Below are positions 12,858 through 17,678 of a stretch of 19,042 bases of DNA, one piece after another. The stretch lies in assembly GCA_014380965.1 (NCBI GenBank), contig JACMIV010000328.1, positions 1 to 19,042 of the forward strand. Direction: 5' to 3'. Source of the DNA: Rhizobiaceae bacterium. GTDB lineage: Bacteria > Pseudomonadota > Alphaproteobacteria > Rhizobiales > Rhizobiaceae. The notes beneath the pieces are model-generated. The model did no database searches. It was not told where the DNA came from and saw only the letters and a program-made list of their open reading frames with translations. Within the stretch, counting starts at the first letter, position 1; each line of letters opens with the position of its first letter. The position numbers and the translations under genes were made by a program.

Positions 12858-13313
12858 TCACGTTTCGTATGGGTTCAGGAGTTTCACGCCGGTCGGCTCG
12901 ATGTGACGCACATTGCGCGTAACGATGGTCAAGTCGTGTTCGAGCGCGGTCGCAGCAATGAGAAGGTCCGGATTGGTGTTCCTCAGATCGTGGCTGAGTT
13001 GACCCCAACGTCGGGCAGTACCGATGGTCAGCGGCAAGACACGTTTGTCATATACGACGACAGTGGCCTCCAGCCAGTCGATGTACCTGTCGGGGCGACG
13101 CTTTTCGGTCATCTCAAGTCTTCGAACGCCGCGAGCCACCTCTCCAATCGTGATGACGCTGAGATATGCCGTGTCCTGATGCCGATATGCGTTGAGCCAT
13201 CGATACGCCGCAGGATCGGGTCTGACTTTAAAGCCTTCCGACAGGACCATAGTGTCGAGGAGGAATGGTCCTCTATCCAAGGTCGATGTCACGATATTCG
13301 GACGGGTGGGCAT
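12858..13313 (-). CDS. PIN-domain toxin, FitB/VapC type, probably decaying
   Basis: Type II toxin of the PIN RNase family. Numbered from the ATG at 13313, the 151-residue product has FLLDTMVLSE (first acid Asp20), YLSVITIGEVARG (Glu58), NPDLLIAATAL (Asp116) and the C-terminal TRNVRHIEPTGVKLLNPYE block typical of FitB-like toxins. Two positions differ from my recollection of the family. The usual DTN is DTM, and the fourth acidic residue expected in TRNVxDF is His (VRHIE). No ATG immediately precedes FLLDT, where these toxins normally begin; in-frame choices are ATG 13361, ATG 13313, GTG 13292 or TTG 13280. It overlaps the antitoxin gene, which is itself frameshifted. The toxin is probably weak or inactive. 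Confidence 0.75.
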   Translation of the reverse strand: MPTRPNIVTSTLDRGPFLLDTMVLSEGFKVRPDPAAYRWLNAYRHQDTAYLSVITIGEVARGVRRLEMTEKRRPDRYIDWLEATVVVYDKRVLPLTIGTARRWGQLSHDLRNTNPDLLIAATALEHDLTIVTRNVRHIEPTGVKLLNPYET

Positions 13314-13553
13314 GACGATCGTCGAAGATGTCGTCCAATCCTTCGGGCAGCTTGGGCGCATTCATGATTTGATCGATGAGCGTTCTTTTCGGCGCTGTAT
13401 CCAATGCGGTCAACCTCTCGAATTCCGCCGCGGACATTACCACCACGGCGTAGACGCCGCGCTTCGTCACATGTTGCGGTTCTCCATTTTCGGCAGCTTC
13501 GACCACTGCGGAGAACTTGTCTTCGCGTCCTGAAGCGTCCAGACCTTCCCCAT
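13273..13553 (-). pseudogene. Phd/YefM-type antitoxin with a single-base frameshift
   Basis: A strong ribosome-binding site (GGGAGG, 7 bases upstream) and an ATG at 13553-13551 begin MGKVWTLQDAK, the canonical Phd/YefM N-terminus, but this frame runs into a stop at 13467-13469. The continuation FSAVVEAAENGEPQHVTKRG...VVVMSAAEFERL is in another frame and ends at 13273. The break lies at about 13516-13523: GCG-AAG-ACA-AG-TTC, where family members read AAG-AAC-AAG-TTC, that is, one base missing. No slippery heptamer is present, so programmed frameshifting is unlikely. Re-initiation at GTG 13506 could still make a 77-residue C-terminal piece holding the toxin-binding part but without the complete DNA-binding N-terminus. 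A sequencing error is the main alternative. Confidence 0.8.
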
Positions 13554-13618: not shown

Positions 13619-13658
13619 ATACGAATGGCCGAGACGTCTCCGTCCCGGCCATTCGTAT
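13619..13658 (-). terminator. 12-bp perfect hairpin downstream of the mini-catalase gene
   Basis: ATACGAATGGCC (13619-13630) and GGCCATTCGTAT (13647-13658) are exact inverted repeats around a 16-base loop that itself contains the palindrome GAGACGTCTC. On the minus strand the hairpin is followed by TTTC, 25 bases after the mini-catalase stop. It looks like that gene's transcription terminator, although the T tract is short. Confidence 0.65.
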
Positions 13659-13683: not shown

Positions 13684-14043
13684 TTATTCCGCCGCCTGCT
13701 GCGGCGTTTCCTGCATCAGCGAAATCGCTGGCCGCTCGGCACCCGAGGCTGCCGCCAGCGCGCGGCGCACGCCGTTTCCGTAAATGGGGCGGACGTGGTC
13801 GAAATGGACGAGCTGGCGATCCTCGATCTCCTTCGGGATGCCGCCCATGGCAGCGGCGATGTTCGAGAAGAGACGCTGCCTCTTGCCATCGTCTGGAATG
13901 CGCTCGCGATTCTGATGCGCCAGCTTCTCGATGAACTGGTATTCCGATAGGAGGATCGGGCCGCGCTCGCCGGCGGTCCAGGAATTCCGATTGTCCGGCA
14001 CGGGCGCGCCGGTTGTCGTCGTCAGCGTCTTCGTGTCCGTCAT
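13684..14043 (-). pseudogene. in-frame internally deleted catalase ('mini-catalase', 119 codons)
   Basis: Residues 1-50 read as the N-terminus of a monofunctional haem catalase: [21 protein letters not shown], then [21 protein letters not shown]. Residue 51 onward reads as the extreme C-terminus of the same family: [29 protein letters not shown], [11 protein letters not shown] normal small-subunit catalase has about 480-490 residues, so roughly 370 residues are missing at about 13893/13894. The missing part includes the catalytic His just after NRERIPxxVVHAKG, the distal Asn and the haem-ligand Tyr. It cannot be a haem catalase. The frame is intact, AAGGAG lies 7 bases before the ATG, a hairpin follows the stop, and oxyR is divergent. 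This suggests a clean deletion of katA, or a retained small protein. Confidence 0.85.
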
Positions 14044-14131
14044 GTCGGTCTCCTTCGGTCTCCGCCACCGGCTCGACTGGCGACTTTTGGAACTCTTCCA
14101 GAAGATGATGACAAGGTTTTGCCGATCAGTA

Positions 14132-14144
14132 CAAAGCGTCTTTG
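14132..14144. promoter_or_regulatory. CAAAG-N3-CTTTG inverted repeat in the oxyR / mini-catalase spacer
   Basis: CAAAG (14132-14136) and CTTTG (14140-14144) form a perfect 5-bp dyad around CGT, within the 132-bp spacer between the divergent genes. It may be a regulator half-site or part of the promoter for the minus-strand gene. No matching regulator is recognised. Confidence 0.3.
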
Positions 14145-14154
14145 CAAGTACGCC

Positions 14155-14173
14155 CGATCGGTTTATCCTATCG
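14155..14173. promoter_or_regulatory. LysR-type operator candidate upstream of oxyR
   Basis: CGAT-N11-ATCG (14155-14173) is a dyad that satisfies the T-N11-A rule of LysR-type regulators; the E. coli OxyR half-site ATAG-N7-CTAT has the same T-N11-A geometry. It ends two bases before the oxyR start codon, in the spacer shared with the divergent catalase remnant. That position is consistent with autoregulation and control of the catalase promoter. Confidence 0.45.
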
Positions 14174-14175
14174 CA

Positions 14176-15099
14176 ATGCTCACGATCCGACAGCTCCGCT
14201 ATTTCGAGGCCCTCGCCGAAGCGCTCCATTTCGGCAGGGCTGCGCGGGCCCTCAACATCAGCCAACCGGCTTTGTCGGCGCAGATCGCCGCGATGGAGGA
14301 GGTGTTCGGCGGGCCGTTGTTCGAGCGGCGCGCGTCGGGCGTGCTCCTGACGAGCGATGGCATCTTGGTGAATGGCCGCGTACGACGGATTCTGACCGAT
14401 ATTCGGGACCTCGAAGGCCTCGGCACGTCGAAGGGCGAGGTGCTCGCGGGGCGGATGCGTCTCGGCCTGATCGCGACCGTCGCGCCCTACCTCCTTCCCA
14501 GGCTCCTGCCGCGCCTGGCGCGGGATCATGCGCGCCTCGACTGCGAGATTCGCGAGAGCGTCACGCAGACGCTGCTGCGCGACGTCCTTCACGGGGAACT
14601 CGATTGCGCGGTCGTGGCTATTCCCCTCGAAAGAGCCGAACTTCAGACCATCACCCTCTTTGAAGATCGCTTCCATCTCGCCGTTCCCGAATGCGAAGAG
14701 CATCGCTTTCGGGGCGCGGTCTCCGTTCATGCGCTCGCCATGGAGCGGCTGATCCTCCTCGAGGAAGGCCACTGCTTGCGGGATCAAGCCCTCAAGATCT
14801 GCCAGCTTGTCGAGGCGAACGAGCTCGCCAGCCTCGGAGCGACGAGCCTGACGACCATTCTCAGGATGGTGGCGGGTGGTCTCGGCGCGACCTTGATTCC
14901 CGATCTCGCGGTCGAGGCGGAAAGCCGCGGCGGCGGCATCCGCATCCTGCCGTTCCAGGAGCCCGCTCCGTCGCGGACACTTGCTCTTGCCTTCCGCCCC
15001 TCGACCGCGCGGCGCAGGGACTTCGAGGCCCTTGCCCTCCTCATCCGAGAAACCGCGCGTGAGAGCACAGCGCAATTCATGGAACTTACTTCCACCTAG
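14176..15099 (+). CDS. oxyR: hydrogen-peroxide-sensing LysR-type regulator OxyR
   Basis: Cytoplasmic transcription factor that senses H2O2 by a disulphide switch and activates catalase and related genes. The 307-residue product has an N-terminal LysR helix-turn-helix (about 1-60; [19 protein letters not shown]) and a C-terminal effector domain. The OxyR signature [15 protein letters not shown] is present, with Cys200 and Cys209 at the same 9-residue spacing as E. coli Cys199/Cys208. Length also matches (305 in E. coli). The ATG at 14176 aligns with the family start; an upstream TTG at 14119 would add 19 residues and is less likely. It is divergent from the catalase remnant, the usual oxyR-katA arrangement. 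Its redox residues are intact although the adjacent target gene is gutted. Confidence 0.92.
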
Positions 15100-15151
15100 C
15101 AAAATTATCCCATGGCTTCGAAAGCGATGTGAACGTCCACGGGAGGAAACG

Positions 15152-16942
15152 ATGGCGATCTTCGACTACAAGGGAAGCGACGCGCGGGCGGACGTGGCGG
15201 AAGCGTTCCGGCTGGCGCGCTATTCGCAGATCGAGGCTTTCGGCGCGTTGGGAGACGCGCTCGGGATAGTGACCCGAAGCGGTGACGATCTCGGCATTCC
15301 AGCGGGCTGGAGGGAGCTGACGGCCGCGGAACTCGGCGTTTCGGCAGCCAAAGTGGACGCCGACGGCTTCTTCACCGGAGCGACATCTCCCGCGGCGCAG
15401 ACGAAAGTTCTCGGCTTCGTCGGCGCGAACGGGCAGATCGAGCGCGTGTCGATCGCGTTCGCGGGGACCAACAATCTCAACGATCTTCCCGATTATCTCG
15501 CCCTTGCCGAGGGGCGATATATCGAGGAGTTCCGGTATCTCCTCGATGCCGCGGCAGCATATTCGGCAGGCAAGGGCCTCGCCGGAGGTGATGTCGTCGT
15601 CTCCGGCTACAGCCTCGGCGGCGCGGCCGTGAACATCTTTGCAGAACGCGCCGGCGAGATCGCGGGCGGCTTCTACGCGACCTCGGATTTCTTCGGCTTC
15701 TCCTCGCCCACCATCTTCGACGACGAGACCGTCTTCAACTACGGCGCCGAGAACGACGTGGTCTACCGGGTGATCGGCGATTCCGACGGCTCGGTTTCCG
15801 AAGGTCTCCTGGAAGCGCTGATCAACGAGGACAACGAATTCCTCAGCTCGGCCGACAACATCGTCTTCTTCAACGATCTCTACGCCAGTCCGCTGTCGCC
15901 CTATGGCCCTTTCGGCATCCTCAACCTTTTCGGGGGGTGGAACGCGCACATCACCGGGATCTTCGAGGAGACAGCCGAGACGATCGGGCGGTCGAGCTTC
16001 TACGACCTCATCGAACGCGACAGCGCCGTCGTCATCTCCCAGCTCAGCGAAGGGCTGCGGGGCACGGTCTGGGTGGAGGACGCTTTCCGCACGACGTCCA
16101 GCCATTTCGGCGACCCGGCCTTCCTTCTCGGCACCGACAGCGGGGATCGTCTGCGCGACGGCGAGGAGGGCAACTATCTCGACGGATTTGCCGGCAACGA
16201 CAGGTTCGACCTATCCACGGGCAACGACAGCGTCGCCGGCGGCACGGGGACCGACACGGTCCTCCTAGACGGCCGGGCCTCGCAATACGAGGCGATCCGG
16301 CTCTCCGACGGGACGGTCTATCTCGACGGCGCGGCCGGCGGATATGGGCTGAAGGAACTGGTCTCGGTCGAGAGCGTCGCCTTCGGTCTTGCCTCGTACA
16401 CGGTCCGCAGCTCGGCTCTCGACAGCACGCTCTTCTTATCGCCCGACATCCGATACGCTTCCCACCGCGAAGGTGGCGAAGGCGGCGACCGGCTGACGGG
16501 CGGGTCCGGCGTGGACCGGCTGTTCGGCCGGGACGGGAACGACCAACTCTTCGGAGGATCGGGCAACGACCTCGTGCACGGCGGCGCGGGAGACGACAGG
16601 CTGTTCGGGCAGGCGGGGAACGACCGACTCTTCGGCGCGGCGGGCGACGACGTCCTCGTCGACGGGCTCGGCAACGACCGGCTTTCGGGCGGCGCGGGCG
16701 ACGACCGTTTCGATTTCTCCTCCGGCTTCGGCGGCCGCGACGTCGTCACGGACTTCGACGCGGGCGCCGAGGGCGACGACATGCTGATCCTCGCCGCGCA
16801 ACTCTTCCGAACCGCCGATGCCGCCCTCGCACGCTTCCAGCAGACGGGCTTCGACGCCCTGTTGTCGTGGAGCGGCGGATCGGTCGTGCTCGAAGACGTG
16901 ACGATCGCCGATCTCGGCGTCGACGACATCCTCCTCGCCTGA
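15152..16942 (+). CDS. RTX lipase-like hydrolase, family I.3 type, type I secreted
   Basis: Predicted extracellular Ca2+-dependent lipase or polyurethanase-like esterase. The 596-residue product starts MAIFDYKG, resembling the MGVFDYK start of Pseudomonas family I.3 lipases, behind a strong ribosome-binding site (GGGAGG). The nucleophile elbow is GYSLGG (Ser154). Asp202 (ENDVVYR) and His266 (WNAHITG) complete a plausible triad; the Ser-Asp gap of 48 equals that of the Pseudomonas MIS38 lipase (Ser207/Asp255) as I recall it. Two RTX blocks follow: a short one at about 328-372 and a longer one at about 441-522. The C-terminus ends in DDILLA, acidic-then-hydrophobic as in type I secretion signals. 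There is no N-terminal signal peptide and no transporter genes in the window, so export must use a system elsewhere. Substrate is unproven. Confidence 0.82.
16472..16717 (+). repeat. RTX calcium-binding nonapeptide repeats within the lipase gene
   Basis: Residues 441-522 hold about nine tandem GGxGxDxLx-type units, for example [18 protein letters not shown] and GGAGDDRFD, forming a parallel beta-roll that folds on Ca2+ outside the cell. At the DNA level they appear as imperfect 27-base repeats rich in GGCG/GACGA. Confidence 0.88.
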
Positions 16943-16952
16943 GGCACCTTCG

Positions 16953-17009
16953 TTGAGACGCCCCGCCCCGGATGGTACGATCGGCAAGATTTCCACAATC
17001 CGGGGCGGG
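16953..17009 (+). promoter_or_regulatory. vapBC promoter with 12-bp inverted-repeat operator
   Basis: TTGAGA (16953-16958), a 17-base spacer and TACGAT (16976-16981) form a good sigma-70 type promoter. CCCGCCCCGGAT (16962-16973) fills the spacer, and its exact reverse complement ATCCGGGGCGGG (16998-17009) lies just before the vapB ATG at 17012. The dyad suits autorepression by the VapBC complex. As RNA, only the right arm would be transcribed from this promoter. Read-through transcripts from the upstream lipase gene would form a hairpin that hides the vapB ribosome-binding region and could act as the lipase terminator. Confidence 0.6.
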
Positions 17010-17011
17010 AC

Positions 17012-17266
17012 ATGCATCTCACCATCCGCAACGACGATGCCCATCGGCTCGCGACCGAGCTGGCGGCGCTGAAGGGCGAGAGCCTCACCCAGGCGGTCAC
17101 CACTGCGTTGGAGGAGCGGCTGGAGCGGGAGCTGACAAAGCGCGACAGAAGCGGAATCGCGGAACGTGCGATGGAACTCGGTCGCCGTTATTCGGCGCTC
17201 CCAGATAGGGATACGCGGACGGCAGACGAGATCCTTGGATATGACGAGAACGGCCTGCCGACGTGA
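17012..17266 (+). CDS. vapB: VapB-type antitoxin
   Basis: Antitoxin of the Rv0623/PSK-like VapB family, expected to bind DNA with its N-terminal half and neutralise the toxin with its C-terminal half. The 84-residue product starts MHLTIRNDDAHRLATELAAL, then GESLTQAVTTALEERLERE. This is the pattern of this family (short beta strand, helix-turn-helix-like core), followed by a charged tail ending in DEILGYDENGLPT, close to the DxILGYDExGLP tail I know from such antitoxins. Its TGA overlaps the GTG start of vapC by four bases (GTGA), the classic coupled arrangement. Promoter and operator lie immediately upstream. No defects are visible. Confidence 0.87.
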   Translation: MHLTIRNDDAHRLATELAALKGESLTQAVTTALEERLERELTKRDRSGIAERAMELGRRYSALPDRDTRTADEILGYDENGLPT

Positions 17267-17667
17267 TCATGGTCGATACGTCTTCGCCCATGGCCATCTT
17301 TCTTCAGGAAACTGATGCGAGCACTCATGCGGAAAGGATCGAGCACGATGATCAGCCCCTTATGTCGGCGGCCTCGGTTTTGGAGGCGTCCATCGTGATC
17401 AGGAATGCCAAAACGCTTAGCATCGCTCATGCGGAAGCGTGGCTCGACGAGATGATTCTCGTGTTCGACATTAAAATAGAAGCCGTCACGGTCGAGCAGA
17501 TGCGGATTGCGCGCATAGCCCACATGACCTTCGGCAAGGGTACTGGGCATCCCGCACAGCTCACCTTCGGAGACTGCTTCGCCCACGCGCTTGCAAAGGC
17601 GTCAAGCGCACCGCTCCCGTTCAAGGGCGACGATTTCGGAAGGACTGACATCGAGCGGACGCTCTAG
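17263..17667 (+). CDS. vapC: VapC-type PIN-domain ribonuclease toxin
   Basis: Toxin RNase of the VapC family, probably cutting tRNA or rRNA when free of VapB. The 134-residue product keeps all expected acidic residues: Asp5 in MVDTSS, Glu41 in SAASVLEASIV, Asp104 in FGDCFAHALA and Asp123/124 in FKGDDFGRTDI. FGKGTGHPAQLTFGDC is the usual block before the third acid. Start is the GTG at 17263 overlapping the vapB stop; an ATG at 17269 would remove only two residues. Unlike the left-hand PIN toxin it appears intact. It ends 11 bp from the convergent MAPEG gene. Its base composition is less GC-rich than the flanking housekeeping genes, hinting at transfer. Confidence 0.88.
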   Translation: MIMVDTSSPMAIFLQETDASTHAERIEHDDQPLMSAASVLEASIVIRNAKTLSIAHAEAWLDEMILVFDIKIEAVTVEQMRIARIAHMTFGKGTGHPAQLTFGDCFAHALAKASSAPLPFKGDDFGRTDIERTL

Positions 17668-17678
17668 CGAGCCTGCCG

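Follow-up and report, generated by a model that had tools for sequence, protein, structure and literature searches.

The window, by which we mean the whole 19,042-nucleotide stretch of DNA analysed here, belongs to a draft genome of the genus Aureimonas (2.57 Mb in 401 contigs, estimated to be 65.9% complete). Its minus strand carries an open frame of 119 amino acids, with an ATG at 14043 and a stop codon that ends at 13684, in which the two ends of a catalase, KatA, are joined beside a divergent oxyR gene. The features of the locus are the following.

12858..13361, minus strand: PIN-domain gene, downstream of katA and syntenic in relatives (Pfam, gene order)
13279..13553, minus strand: Phd/YefM-like antitoxin gene, in two frames near its start (comparison with intact homologues)
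13619..13658, minus strand: 3' hairpin with 18-nt arms (folding, z -6.1)
13684..14043, minus strand: katA remnant, 119-aa open frame (translation, Pfam PF00199 and PF06628, alignment)
13684..13893, minus strand: retained C-terminal helical part, codons 51-119 and the stop, at most 75% identical to full-length catalases (Pfam, alignment)
13893..13894, minus strand: deletion junction, where 382 codons (1,146 nt) are absent relative to seven relatives (motif-placed ends)
13894..14043, minus strand: retained N-terminal arm, codons 1-50, at most 84% identical to full-length catalases (Pfam, alignment)
14044..14175, no strand assigned: katA-oxyR intergenic region (comparison with relatives)
14176..15099, plus strand: oxyR, LysR-type regulator, intact and strongly constrained (Pfam, alignment, codon model)

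Residues 8-51 of the remnant match positions 1-44 of the 383 positions of PF00199 (E 4.8e-11), and residues 51-96 match positions 19-65 of the 65 positions of PF06628 (E 6.7e-9). Both matches score above the curated Pfam cut-offs, which excludes chance similarity to catalase. When the remnant is aligned with eight full-length alphaproteobacterial catalases, its sole large gap is the missing middle. This stretch measures 382 codons in all seven relatives compared, with NRER(I/L/V)P and RLF as the motifs that define its ends. The β-barrel is absent, with the distal histidine that relatives carry in VVHAKG or a similar sequence, and so is the wrapping region with the proximal tyrosine, the haem ligand. 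The PF00199 match stops at position 44, so that nothing of the haem-binding barrel is kept, and positions 1-18 of PF06628 are lost. Translation, Pfam and alignment thus bear out the original prediction that a catalase arm and C-terminus are joined in frame at 13894/13893 and that the whole haem core is missing between them.

Remnant residues 5-51 align with residues 4-50 of 1si8, which we take to be the KatA of Enterococcus faecalis. Structure prediction from nine aligned sequences yields a mean pLDDT of 54, with residues 1-35 below 50, and four helices of at best moderate confidence; the model of the 119-residue product therefore has no confident fold. The available part of one account of E. 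faecalis KatA (PMC4192493) divides the protein into an arm (4-50), a barrel (51-300), a wrapping region (301-415) and a helical region (416-477). By these limits, the loss in the remnant begins at the arm/barrel boundary and ends within the helical region. The frame of the remnant is also open far upstream, antisense to oxyR, as a 472-codon ORF at 13684-15102 on the minus strand. This long antisense frame is probably a by-product of high GC.

The order guaA-mtnN-tspO-rsmB-PIN-katA-oxyR is the same in the window and in the five other Aureimonas genomes examined (G001-G005). In all five, a full-length katA that covers positions 1-382 of PF00199 occupies the syntenic site, divergent from oxyR. 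Shared gene order and full-length katA in every congener together identify the locus in the window as the orthologue of these katA loci, minus the central part of the gene. Beyond oxyR, three of the five congener stretches (L117, L119 and L120) carry guaB and a MAPEG gene. Since MAPEG lies directly beside oxyR in these three, the part of the window between oxyR and MAPEG, at about 15100-17670, looks like an insertion; it holds a gene for an RTX-repeat protein (PF00353) and a second toxin-antitoxin pair, of PSK_trans_fac and PIN type (17012-17667).

At the corresponding position, relatives carry intact homologues of the antitoxin gene that lies between katA and the PIN gene; compared with these, the gene in the window is frame-split. 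The homologue in L118 matches PF02604 weakly, below the cut-off. The PIN gene that follows the split antitoxin in the window looks intact. In G005, it is the PIN gene at the katA locus that is split over two frames (8097-8501 of L119). Taken together, these two cases suggest that decay of the toxin-antitoxin genes next to katA is not confined to one species.

A ribosome-binding-like AAGGAG lies 6 nt upstream of the remnant ATG, and no stop or frameshift is found within the gene. Eight relatives likewise have a hairpin that folds after katA, and in several of them its core is GGCCGGGA/TCCCGGCC. The divergent OxyR has both redox-type cysteines. The ribosome-binding site, the stop, the 3' hairpin and the divergent oxyR, which had been reported as preserved, are thus all present. 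The accompanying claim that no other disabling mutation is visible holds for katA itself but not for its surroundings, since the adjoining antitoxin is frame-split; moreover, the retained katA codons are relaxed, as described below. Decay of the intergenic region was considered and rejected as a distinctive feature: the window has changed 2 of the 23 positions that are invariant in the other eight sequences, and L047 likewise has changed 2 of 23.

A dN/dS comparison had been suggested as a check of the pseudogene reading. In a codon branch test with seven taxa, the remnant shows an ω of 0.217 on the window branch versus 0.051 elsewhere (LRT 9.6). It must be noted that this test was run with a custom script and a simple optimiser, on the tree of the neighbouring genes, and that L120 and L121, whose katA arms are divergent, were left out together with L123. 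Both retained parts behave alike when taken alone in the same seven taxa: ω is 0.285 versus 0.030 for the N-terminal arm (LRT 6.8) and 0.245 versus 0.077 for the C-terminal tail (LRT 4.4). The value of the arm, the higher of the two, is not distinguishable from 1. On the same tree, oxyR has an ω of 0.037 on the window branch versus 0.10 elsewhere (LRT 10.6, in the direction of a lower ω), and rsmB has 0.05 versus 0.075. Other single tips reach LRT values of 5.2 (L117) downwards. With 17 tips, Bosea and Hyphomicrobium types included, the remnant has the highest value of all (0.18 versus 0.05, LRT 6.7), and other single tips reach 3.9 (L044) downwards; some branches are long in this larger test, so that synonymous change is near saturation.

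Pairwise comparisons were expressed as the ratio of amino-acid change in the remnant to that in oxyR. Paired with L117, L119, L118, L046 and L122, the window gives five ratios of 0.66-1.22; the ten pairs that these relatives form with one another give 0.18-0.68, and the two ranges just overlap (L047 and L123 were aligned but are absent from the ratio table). High ratios are not unique to the window. When L120 or L121 is one member of the pair, the ratio is 0.96-1.36 with the window and with the other five alike, and the L120-L121 pair gives 0.25. The katA arms of these two congeners (G003 and G001, respectively) have diverged far beyond what oxyR or rsmB would lead one to expect; the pattern looks as though one Aureimonas branch had acquired a replacement katA.

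Site conservation was scored against 91 distinct relatives of 111 extracted, a set that was found with the remnant protein and is therefore biased towards similar sequences. At a conservation threshold of 80%, 4 of 59 sites in the remnant differ from the consensus, an unremarkable count that 29 of the 91 relatives equal or exceed. At 90%, it departs at 4 of 48 sites, all of them in the arm, as compared with a mean of 1.4; 10 of the 91 have as many or more.

The feature is most probably an ordinary loss-of-function remnant of katA, produced by an in-frame deletion and now decaying, in one draft genome. The pairing of an intact orthologue at the same site in every congener with relaxed constraint that is seen in katA, and not in oxyR or rsmB, backs the original reading of a pseudogene by in-frame deletion. 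Its ancestor would have been the ordinary katA of an Aureimonas-type bacterium, a clade-3 catalase gene divergent from oxyR and presumably controlled by OxyR. Two sites with about 2 nt in common would have been the ends of an illegitimate 1,146-nt deletion, most likely a single event and one that took place in cells rather than in the assembly. It would have removed the β-barrel and the wrapping region together with the start of the C-terminal helical domain, and with them both residues that hold the haem, the distal histidine and the proximal tyrosine. The reading frame would have survived by luck, as it does in one of three deletions. If translated, the 119-residue product would have no catalase activity and probably no stable fold; it presumably does nothing. 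The remnant would have been drifting ever since, while the divergent oxyR is still under selection, presumably for its other targets.

Several observations speak against decay. The frame, the start signal, the stop and the hairpin are intact, and the intergenic region has not decayed. The site count at the 80% threshold and the high oxyR ratios outside the window, both given above, point the same way. Finally, the ω of the whole remnant on the window branch is significantly below 1 (LRT 7.7). If the neutral value is taken as 1, an average ω of about 0.2 would be expected of a gene that was functional along most of the branch and has been drifting for roughly the last sixth of it. Partial drift of this kind explains an ω below 1, and selection on a product would explain it too. 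In simulated drift with 22 substitutions (substitutions only), 53-59% of trials produced no stop, so that a clean frame is compatible with drift to this extent.

The junction itself is rare. As had been recommended at the outset, the same junction was sought in related genomes, alongside full-length katA next to oxyR. While the latter is present in 5/5 congeners, the exact junction pattern was found in only one of 394 family genomes, the remnant's own. A looser pattern, applied to 397 genomes of the order, matched 12 genomes including the remnant's own. The 11 others contain 12 matching places, and none of the 10 places inspected is a catalase. Both patterns target this one junction and not other internal deletions of catalase. 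In a protein search of 60 genomes (own included), 32 had a match, and only in the remnant's own genome do arm and tail lie at one place; in the others they match at separate places. Among the 98 plasmid records matched, none covers 80% of the remnant protein in one place, and the ten stretches of viral contigs that matched the peptide pattern include no relative of the remnant. No description of an arm-plus-tail catalase remnant was found in the accessible parts of the literature among the matches listed.

A junction found in no other genome searched is also what could be seen if the organism had a full-length katA whose middle was skipped by the draft assembly, through an assembly or binning artefact. 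We consider this unlikely, although the draft is fragmentary, with its 401 contigs, 2.57 Mb and completeness of 65.9%, and the neighbouring antitoxin is also frame-broken. The latter could reflect either true decay or base-level errors and keeps the artefact alive as an alternative. However, in seven relatives the ±30-nt zones around the two breakpoints share words of 5-7 nt at the longest, and the breakpoint itself has about 2 nt common to both sides. Such words are too short to make collapse at a repeat or k-mer likely. The contig also has its neighbours in the expected order on both sides. Moreover, constraint is relaxed in the retained katA codons and in neither oxyR nor rsmB, which argues against a working full-length gene hidden by misassembly.

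A quite improbable alternative is that two katA genes recombined, an N-terminal arm of Aureimonas type being joined to a C-terminal tail of Bosea/Hyphomicrobium type, and that the fusion then decayed. This idea stems from the nearest matches of the two parts: the arm is closest to catalases of Aureimonas and its kin (82-84%, best five), and the tail to those of Hyphomicrobium, Bosea and similar types (74-75%, best six). Separate trees of arm and tail agree with this, with supports of 0.74 and 0.72-0.80. Nevertheless, segments of 50 and 69 residues make for weak trees, and arm and tail taken together fall beside the Aureimonas-type clade (support 0.74). Both flanks are of Aureimonas type, with genes in order, and a different katA allele in this lineage would explain the pattern too.

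The original prediction had also speculated that an arm-plus-tail protein might aid or hinder the assembly of another catalase. We find it hard to credit that the 119 residues form a functional protein, be it a modulator of catalase assembly or one with some other role under OxyR. The open frame, the ribosome-binding-like site, the intergenic region and the hairpin are kept, ω is below 1 over the whole remnant, and the N-side cut coincides with the arm/barrel boundary described for E. faecalis KatA in the available part of PMC4192493. On the other hand, the C-side cut falls inside the helical domain, with the loss of PF06628 positions 1-18, and the predicted fold is of low confidence (mean pLDDT 54). 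The arm, at 0.285, has the higher ω and cannot be told from 1, and none of the other genomes searched has the junction.

Nor did a partner come to light. The search for a second catalase that had been advised returned no other haem catalase (PF00199), no katG-type peroxidase and no Mn-catalase in the remnant's own genome, at 65.9% completeness. The katG-type peroxidase is likewise missing from all six Aureimonas genomes, this incomplete one included, and Mn-catalase is present in 5/5 congeners. These absences are weak, as about a third of the genome is estimated to be absent from the draft, and an arm-plus-tail protein made under OxyR might still modulate, in a dominant-negative or chaperone-like manner, a catalase encoded in the unassembled part; we regard this as highly implausible. 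Nine AhpC/TSA-family places occur in the genome at E ≤0.001, eight of them above the cut-off. In one congener, a second, diverged PF00199 match (L129, G003:C3:105561-106391) covers positions 44-338 without the arm and is possibly a catalase-related peroxidase.

The katA remnant, read as a decaying deletion product, can be set beside several known systems. With KatA, the clade-3 small-subunit monofunctional haem catalase, it shares the locus, the two termini, the divergent regulator and the neighbours; it differs in lacking 382 codons, those for the distal histidine and the proximal tyrosine among them. Like bacterial in-frame-deletion pseudogenes, it has intact syntenic orthologues in sister species, a lost active site and relaxed constraint, but it has as yet no further disabling mutation within the gene. 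Mini-catalases and catalase-related peroxidases are also shortened members of the catalase family. In these, however, it is the tails that are lost and the haem barrel that stays; the remnant is the reverse, with tails and no barrel. The kind of event is well known, and the remnant is a new example of it, with its junction in one genome only.

If the small protein did have a function, catalase would have given rise to a regulator without haem; on balance, the evidence speaks against this. As a remnant, the locus is of little consequence except for annotation, where its 119-aa "catalase" match should not be counted as a catalase. The principal haem enzyme for removing peroxide may be missing from the lineage, in which OxyR stays under constraint.
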